Source: Pseudomonas sp. MUP55 (GTDB lineage: Bacteria; Pseudomonadota; Gammaproteobacteria; Pseudomonadales; Pseudomonadaceae). From it: a DNA stretch of 64,000 nucleotides. Positions 30,420-40,376 of this stretch are shown in pieces. The notes below the pieces were generated by a model. That model saw only the letters and a program-made list of their open reading frames with translations. It was not told the DNA's origin and did not search any database. Numbering within the stretch: the stretch's first letter is position 1; each line of letters opens with the position of its first letter. The stretch spans positions 1,674,001-1,738,000 of the forward strand of contig NZ_CP138214.1 in NCBI RefSeq assembly GCF_034043515.1, given 5' to 3'. A program made the translations under genes and the position numbers.

Positions 30420-30664
30420 GGAGTTGGCCAGGCAGGCCGGTAAATTCATTCGAAGGCATTTGGGTTGCAGCTAGCCTAGCCGCCTATCCCTTTCTGTGCA
30501 GACTTTTTCCGCGCCTTTTACATTATTGATCCTGTGAATATTTGAATATTGACGGGCGGCGGGCTTATGGTCGGAGTTCTGAAATGACTGGAAAGTCGCG
30601 TTTTTCCTAGCCTTTGGAGCGATTGACAATTGCCCGGAATTGGATGAAGGTGGCGTACCCAAAT

Positions 30665-30691
30665 CAAACGGGCGTATGAAATGAGCGTTTG
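30665..30691. promoter_or_regulatory. Tandem PsrA-like operator upstream of fadBA
   Basis: Two sites of the form (G/C)AAAC-N4-GTTT(G/C) overlap by one base: CAAAC-GGGC-GTATG at 30665-30678 and GAAAT-GAGC-GTTTG at 30678-30691. Each matches 9 of 10 arm positions. The geometry is the same as in the perfect pair upstream of psrA. It lies 149 bp before the fadB ATG. Confidence 0.7.
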
Positions 30692-30840
30692 TCCTACAGG
30701 CGACTCTGACATAACCCCGACTATCGCACCGGCGGGTGTGCCTGGCGTATTGGCGTGAGCATTGATGCAGCTGTCAATGTCAAACCAGAGGCCAGCGTCC
30801 GGTGTGTACTGTTCAGCTTCCATATCGTGGAGATCAGTTG

Positions 30841-34193
<3,353 letters not shown>

Positions 34194-39609: not shown

Positions 39610-39638
39610 TTGACAAGACATACCCTGAAACGTATGTT
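39610..39638 (+). promoter_or_regulatory. psrA: Sigma-70 promoter of psrA
   Basis: TTGACA at 39610-39615 and TATGTT at 39633-39638, 17 bp apart. The -10 element lies inside the first PsrA palindrome, so repressor binding would block polymerase directly. Confidence 0.7.
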
Positions 39639-39653
39639 TCAAACAAGTGTTTG
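39627..39653. promoter_or_regulatory. Tandem PsrA operator at psrA
   Basis: Two perfect sites, GAAAC-GTAT-GTTTC at 39627-39640 and CAAAC-AAGT-GTTTG at 39640-39653, share base 39640. Both match the known PsrA motif (G/C)AAAC-N2-4-GTTT(G/C). The pair ends 15 bp before the psrA ATG. Confidence 0.88.
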
Positions 39654-39668: not shown

Positions 39669-40376
39669 ATGGCCCAGTCGGAAACCGTTGAACGCATTCT
39701 CGATGCTGCCGAGCAATTGTTCGCGGAAAAAGGATTTGCTGAAACTTCATTGCGGCTGATCACCAGCAAGGCCGGGGTCAACCTCGCCGCCGTGAACTAC
39801 CATTTCGGCTCGAAAAAAGCCCTGATCCAGGCGGTGTTCTCGCGCTTCCTGGGACCGTTCTGTGCCAGCCTCGATCGCGAGCTGGAGCGTCGCCAGGCCA
39901 AGGCCGACAACAAGCCAAGCCTGGAAGAGCTGCTGGAAATCCTGGTTGAGCAAGCCCTGGTGGTGCAGCCACGCAGCGGCAACGACCTGTCTATCTTCAT
40001 GCGCCTTTTGGGCTTGGCGTTCAGCCAGAGCCAGGGCCACCTGCGCCGCTACCTGGAAGACATGTACGGCAAGGTGTTTCGTCGCTATATGCTGCTGGTC
40101 AATGAAGCCGCCCCGCGTATCCCGCCGATCGAACTGTTCTGGCGCGTGCACTTCATGCTCGGCGCTGCGGCTTTCAGCATGTCCGGGATCAAGGCGCTGC
40201 GTGCAATTGCCGAGACCGATTTCGGCGTCAACACCTCCATCGAGCAGGTGATGCGCCTGATGGTGCCGTTCCTCGCCGCGGGCATGCGCGCCGAAACCGG
40301 CGTGACCGACCAGGCCATGGCCGTCGCCCAATTGCGCCCGCGCAGCAAATCCACACCCGCCCTCGCCAAGGTTTGA
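39669..40376 (+). CDS. psrA: TetR family fatty-acid-responsive regulator PsrA
   Basis: A 235-residue TetR-type regulator. The DNA-binding domain is residues ~1-55 (ETVERILDAAEQLFAEKGF ... NYHFGSKKAL), followed by an all-helical ligand domain. In Pseudomonas PsrA represses fadBA and itself, activates rpoS and is released by long-chain fatty acyl ligands. The identification rests on the N-terminal sequence, its place between lexA and nagZ, and the perfect PsrA operators in its own promoter. The ATG at 39669 has GGAG five bases upstream. Confidence 0.93.
   Translation: MAQSETVERILDAAEQLFAEKGFAETSLRLITSKAGVNLAAVNYHFGSKKALIQAVFSRFLGPFCASLDRELERRQAKADNKPSLEELLEILVEQALVVQPRSGNDLSIFMRLLGLAFSQSQGHLRRYLEDMYGKVFRRYMLLVNEAAPRIPPIELFWRVHFMLGAAAFSMSGIKALRAIAETDFGVNTSIEQVMRLMVPFLAAGMRAETGVTDQAMAVAQLRPRSKSTPALAKV

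Follow-up and report, generated by a model that had tools for sequence, protein, structure and literature searches.

Is the DNA just upstream of fadB a specific double-site operator for the TetR-family regulator PsrA, built like the one at psrA, or two weak PsrA-like boxes that happen to adjoin? In other strains, PsrA is reported to bind and repress fadBA5 and PA0506, with long-chain fatty acids relieving the repression (PMC5722320; PMC11890623), and to repress psrA. The element examined here lies upstream of a gene under published PsrA control (fadBA5 in P. aeruginosa), with psrA 9 kb downstream, and both loci fall within the window (the whole stretch of 64,000 nucleotides analysed). We used C/GAAACN4GTTTG/C (SAAACN4GTTTS) as the strict PsrA motif, SAAAYNNNNRTTTS as a relaxed motif for single boxes, and SAAAYNNNNRTTTSAAAYNNNNRTTTS as the 27-bp composite search pattern. 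The fadB locus comprises the following features:

30657..30664, forward strand: conserved 8-mer ACCCAAAT abutting box 1, identical in 54 of 59 genomes
30665..30691, forward strand: putative 27-bp paired PsrA-type operator 5' of fadB, CAAACGGGCGTATGAAATGAGCGTTTG, one mismatch to the composite
30665..30678, no strand assigned: box 1 of the fadB element, CAAACGGGCGTATG, one mismatch to the strict motif SAAACN4GTTTS
30678..30691, no strand assigned: box 2 of the fadB element, GAAATGAGCGTTTG, one mismatch to the strict motif SAAACN4GTTTS
30841..32988, forward strand: fadB, fatty acid oxidation complex subunit alpha (TIGR02437, 1326 bits, cut-off 933.55)
33018..34193, forward strand: fadA, acetyl-CoA C-acyltransferase (TIGR02445, 775 bits, cut-off 591)

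The corresponding features at psrA are:

39610..39638, forward strand: psrA promoter, TTGACA-17-TATGTT, with the -10 element within box 1
39627..39653, forward strand: 27-bp paired PsrA operator 5' of psrA, no mismatches to the composite
39627..39640 and 39640..39653: boxes of the psrA pair, GAAACGTATGTTTC and CAAACAAGTGTTTG, no mismatches in either
39669..40376, forward strand: psrA, TetR-family regulator (TetR_N and TetR_C_30 domains)

The PsrA-box palindrome C/GAAACN2-4GTTTG/C is thus present upstream of fadB in two approximate copies, neither of them perfect, and base 30678 is common to both. The bases are as the preliminary description gave them: two boxes with one mismatch each that overlap by one base, as at psrA. 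The psrA product scores 234.7 bits against the NF053516 'PsrA' model, under its cut-off of 300. Its best PDB match, over residues 1-231, is 2fbq_A (420 bits), an entry titled only 'probable transcriptional regulator' that we take to be P. aeruginosa PsrA.

The relaxed motif with at most one mismatch occurs 10 times in the window, compared with 16.8 ± 4.2 in shuffled sequence, so there is no enrichment, and the 'handful' of single 9-of-10 sites that had been expected by chance understates the background. The composite behaves differently: with at most three mismatches it is found at two places in the window against 0.20 expected (one of 100 shuffles gave two), and both places are better than the threshold, with no mismatches at psrA and one at fadB. 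Pairs of boxes with at most two mismatches in total occur twice at an offset of 13 bp, and five further offsets in the range 4-100 have one pair each.

We extended the count to the whole genome, a single contig of 5,948,019 bp (G000), using the composite pattern read backwards as the control. At up to three mismatches the excess is weak (13 places against 8), and at up to two it is six against none; summed over 59 Pseudomonas genomes, the latter threshold gives 285 places against 21. With at most one mismatch only three places remain in the genome, before psrA (no mismatches), fadB (one) and the following third gene:

G000:C1:5388966-5388992 (L003 1501-1527): third full composite, one mismatch, before the fadE1/PA0506 orthologue

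The gene at this third place encodes an acyl-CoA dehydrogenase with a close match in all 59 genomes; it lies beside bioD (TIGR00347), and two more fadE-like genes come after it. It is taken here as the orthologue of PA0506/fadE1, an assignment that draws on the PAO1 gene order. At this threshold, comparison of the genome scan with the PsrA regulon, which the preliminary description had proposed as a check, returns psrA, fadB and fadE1, all of them published targets. Perfect single boxes are about as frequent as in the control (44 against 39), and the only two that adjoin are the psrA pair. Composites with two or three mismatches do occur scattered elsewhere in the genome, and the other candidates of this kind (L004, L005 and L007-L013) were not accepted as targets.

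Conservation was examined in 177 regions upstream of fadB, psrA and fadE from 59 Pseudomonas genomes, our own included (G051, with 9% contamination, was kept). A composite with at most three mismatches precedes each of the three genes in 59/59 genomes. At psrA it has no mismatches in 54 genomes, one in three and two in two; at fadE none in three and one in 56; and at fadB one in three, two in 53 and three in three. When the regions were shuffled (20 mononucleotide shuffles each, 1180 per gene), a composite with three mismatches arose four times for fadB, never for psrA and once for fadE, and one with fewer never arose. In G014, the free search of the fadB region chose another place, and the orthologous site is one base off the fadB consensus. 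The genomes are related, so that these counts are not independent events, and we put more weight on the comparison with flanking sequence: column conservation over the 59 genomes is 0.97-0.99 within the 27-mer and 0.62-0.81 in the 30-bp flanks.

The register is also constrained. In the 29 of the 59 fadB-to-psrA stretches that were fetched by place (274,828 bp), an offset of 13 accounts for 56 pairs of boxes with at most two mismatches between them, and no other offset between 4 and 80 for more than six; psrA has 30 of the 56 in its upstream region and fadB the other 26. The specific double-site reading had been staked on the composite not being equally common inside unrelated coding sequence, and none of the 65 composites with at most three mismatches in these 29 stretches lies elsewhere. 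Rarity across the genome, conservation at three genes in 59/59 genomes and a fixed 13-bp register together back a specific double-site element. In one genome (G015, L076), a third, weaker box, AAATTACCGGTTTG, is found one register step 5' of the psrA pair, and the upper composite that it forms has two mismatches.

The degenerate fadB form was found in at least 119 stretches from named genomes. Among the 80 loci listed, which belong to Pseudomonas, Stutzerimonas and two records named only Gammaproteobacteria, the fadB start lies 126-154 bp downstream in 78, and the remaining two end too soon to tell. A class-wide search for PsrA gave matches at E ≤ 1e-40 in seven of 185 genomes, our own among them. 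One genome of the same family (L177, PsrA 87% identical) has a pair without mismatches before psrA. At five PsrA homologues of 41-42% identity, the best composite has at least five mismatches in four cases and three in one (L181), and the best single boxes have one or two. Support for the pair is thus confined here to the family and comes, outside the genus, from few genomes.

The way in which the fadB element departs from the pattern is itself conserved. The free search returned an identical core, CAAACGGGCGTATGAATTGAGCGTTTG, in 47 of the 59 genomes. Both inner half-sites deviate uniformly, with A at position 12 in 59/59 genomes and T at position 17 in 56/59, and it is the latter that usually brings the element to two mismatches (53/59). 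The window's A at position 17 is shared by three of the 59 genomes (G000, G056 and G027), and the second inner half-site of the relatives is mostly GAATT or GAATC rather than the window's GAAAT. The outer half-sites deviate in only three cells of the alignment, with positions 24, 26 and 27 each changed in a single genome. Taken singly, box 1 has one mismatch in 59/59 genomes, and box 2, under the relaxed motif, has none in three, one in 53 and two in three. Mismatches are fewer at psrA than at fadB in 55 of the 59 genomes and equal in four, and they increase or stay level from psrA through fadE to fadB in 57, the exceptions being G022 and G042 (2, 1 and 2). This order may be read as graded affinity, from a perfect operator at psrA to a weaker one at fadB. 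Two things go beyond the preliminary description: fadE1 is a third full member, and the deviations at fadB are themselves conserved.

At psrA, all 59 genomes have TATGTT at offset 6 within the 27-mer, with TTGACA at a spacer of 17 in 39 and 18 in 20; at fadE, the spacer to TTGACA is 17 in 56/59 and 18 in 2/59, and the -10 element is TATGTT in 54 and TAAGTT in five. Our own genome has TTGACA-17-TATGTT at fadE1, the arrangement it also has at psrA. Since the -10 element falls inside box 1 at both genes, PsrA on box 1 would cover it. For fadB, a search of conserved hexamers in the 59 genomes gave no convincing conserved -35/-10 pair: among candidates for an in-register -10 element, TATGAA (offset 10) is the best, but it lacks a conserved -35 (7.0 matches out of 12 on average). 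The sequence TTGACAAtt is conserved further 5' of the fadB element, and the window has TTGACA at 30623-30628. The fixed imperfection at fadB would suit an operator tuned to lower strength, or one whose sequence has to accommodate a -10 element lying across it, and the invariance of the site could be due in part to an overlapping promoter or to another factor.

The leader between the operator and the fadB start codon (30692-30840) is long and conserved; it measures 149 bp here and 57 bp in one genome. It has no match in Rfam. Its consensus fold scores -16.2, and 30 column shuffles, which make a lenient control, score -0.5 ± 0.6.

We favour the reading, with a probability of about 0.75, that 30665-30691 is a tandem PsrA operator at which two dimers would keep fadBA repressed until long-chain fatty acids release PsrA. 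The element is real and conserved, and very probably functional. The two dimers would sit side by side, one on each 14-bp palindrome, with the palindrome centres 13 bp apart, which by B-DNA arithmetic is about 44 Å along the helix and about 86 degrees around it. Binding of the dimers may be co-operative and may overlap the fadB promoter. With the same paired operator at psrA, where it would serve autorepression, and at fadE1/PA0506, the three sites would form one co-ordinated switch for beta-oxidation. Given its conserved imperfect inner half-sites, the fadB operator is probably the weakest of the three, so that fadBA would be released first; the predicted order of release is fadBA, then fadE1, then psrA, and the spacing of the boxes is predicted to matter.

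An alternative arrangement would place one PsrA dimer at fadB, on a single real box; the other stretch would be box-like on account of the promoter (TATGAATT as the -10 element) or of some further factor, and the resemblance to psrA would be partly accidental. The fixed way in which the inner half-sites deviate would suit such an arrangement, as would TATGAA being the best in-register -10 candidate, and single boxes suffice in published accounts of rpoS and phlA. The rpoS gene of our own genome (n = 1) likewise has a lone box, CAAACGGCAGTTTG, with four mismatches at both neighbouring 13-bp positions, which indicates that the 14-mer is an independent unit. However, the second fadB box stands in the 13-bp register also seen at psrA and fadE, genes whose boxes are both close to perfect, and its outer half-site GTTTG is kept in most genomes (positions 24, 26 and 27 each changed once in 59). 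We give a single dimer a small but appreciable probability.

It is also conceivable, but very unlikely, that the fadB element is occupied chiefly by a different fatty-acid regulator of the TetR family, for example PvrA, and only secondarily by PsrA. The fad genes are described as under both PsrA and PvrA control (PMC11890623), and the preservation of ACCCAAAT beside box 1 in 54/59 genomes suggests that a further factor or a sigma element may touch the block; against this, the layout is nearly identical to that of the psrA operator, and PsrA has been published as a repressor of fadBA5. A chance meeting of two weak boxes of a common kind would agree with single boxes being no commoner than in shuffles (10 against 16.8), yet it is scarcely credible in view of the register, the conservation and the set of targets, and the 59/59 genomes exclude it as the sole cause. 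The expectation that two sites at such a spacing would hardly arise by chance thus holds for the composite, which is enriched in the window, rare in the genome and kept throughout the sample.

How does a tandem PsrA operator compare with what has been described? The published PsrA box (at psrA, rpoS, fadBA5 and PA0506) shares its motif, its regulator and three of its target genes with the present elements, but in the portions of these sources consulted it is given as one per promoter, save for psrA of P. fluorescens 2P24, whose promoter, studied by EMSA, is assigned two putative boxes (PMC3510223); here the boxes form pairs in a 13-bp register. Single boxes are reported for P. aeruginosa fadE1 (-136 to -123) and for PAO1 psrA (GAAACN4GTTTC). 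A text search with five of the 14-mers matched only PMC3510223, at its two psrA boxes. The literature searched, in the portions consulted and with the 2008 fadBA5 paper outside its scope, contains no mention of a shared 13-bp paired register or of a pair at fadB or fadE1. A 2026 review, in the part consulted, places the P. putida PsrA region of psrA at -18 to +20 and that of rpoS at -59 to -35, and the difference in length, near one 13-bp step, fits two dimers at the pair. The promoter of Smlt2053, the PsrA orthologue of Stenotrophomonas maltophilia, has two PsrA-box-like inverted repeats, as here, and forms a second complex in EMSA at higher protein (PMC10304680), which fits two dimers at the pair by analogy.

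In other TetR-family proteins (QacR, CgmR, SlmA, Ms6564 and CprB), crystal structures place two dimers on one operator of 22-32 bp (PMC4150764), whereas here we infer the two dimers from sequence. The CprB dimers occupy opposite sides of one 22-bp site; in the present elements, two complete 14-bp palindromes adjoin with their centres 13 bp apart. EthR, with several dimers per operator, 'seems to bind as an octamer' (PMC9736018), a larger assembly than the one proposed here. The regulator, the box and the targets were known. What the analysis adds is that each of the three beta-oxidation promoters carries the pair in one fixed register, with a grading that is itself conserved; this refines an established switch and does not introduce a new one. 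A loose 14-bp motif found at shuffle-level frequency is replaced by a 27-bp composite that, at one mismatch or fewer, picks out three published PsrA targets alone in a 6-Mb genome.

A broader proposal is that the number, register and place of the boxes form a code, in which a pair 13 bp apart at the promoter (psrA, fadE1, fadB) would give graded, fatty-acid-released repression, and activation would come from a lone box, as at rpoS, or from a pair that lies just 5' of the -35 element, as beside sohB. One TetR-family protein would then act as repressor or activator according to operator layout. We consider this doubtful, a long shot in its strict form, because phlA is reported to be repressed by PsrA from a single GAAACN5GTTTC and lasR from a shortened box, and because activation of rpoS by PsrA is disputed, having been found in some studies and absent in others, with lowering at high PsrA.

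Two further composite-like elements were noted. An A+T-rich one (L006 1501-1527, L332-L341) lies between a FadL-family gene and a gene for an E. coli-type FadE; it has two mismatches in eight of the ten closest orthologous gaps and four or five in the other two, and was rejected as a further target as too A+T-rich. The other, a candidate element, lies between sohB and a histidine-phosphatase/APH-kinase operon (L106, L107 and L109 at 2001-2027; L302-L331). It has two to five mismatches in 25 of the 30 loci examined (two in 19 loci, four in our own genome, L320), and in those 25 it stands exactly 8 bp 5' of a conserved TTGACA-17-TAACCT, an activator-like position. In G003 (L108), a composite of this type stands next to the phosphatase gene, away from sohB.
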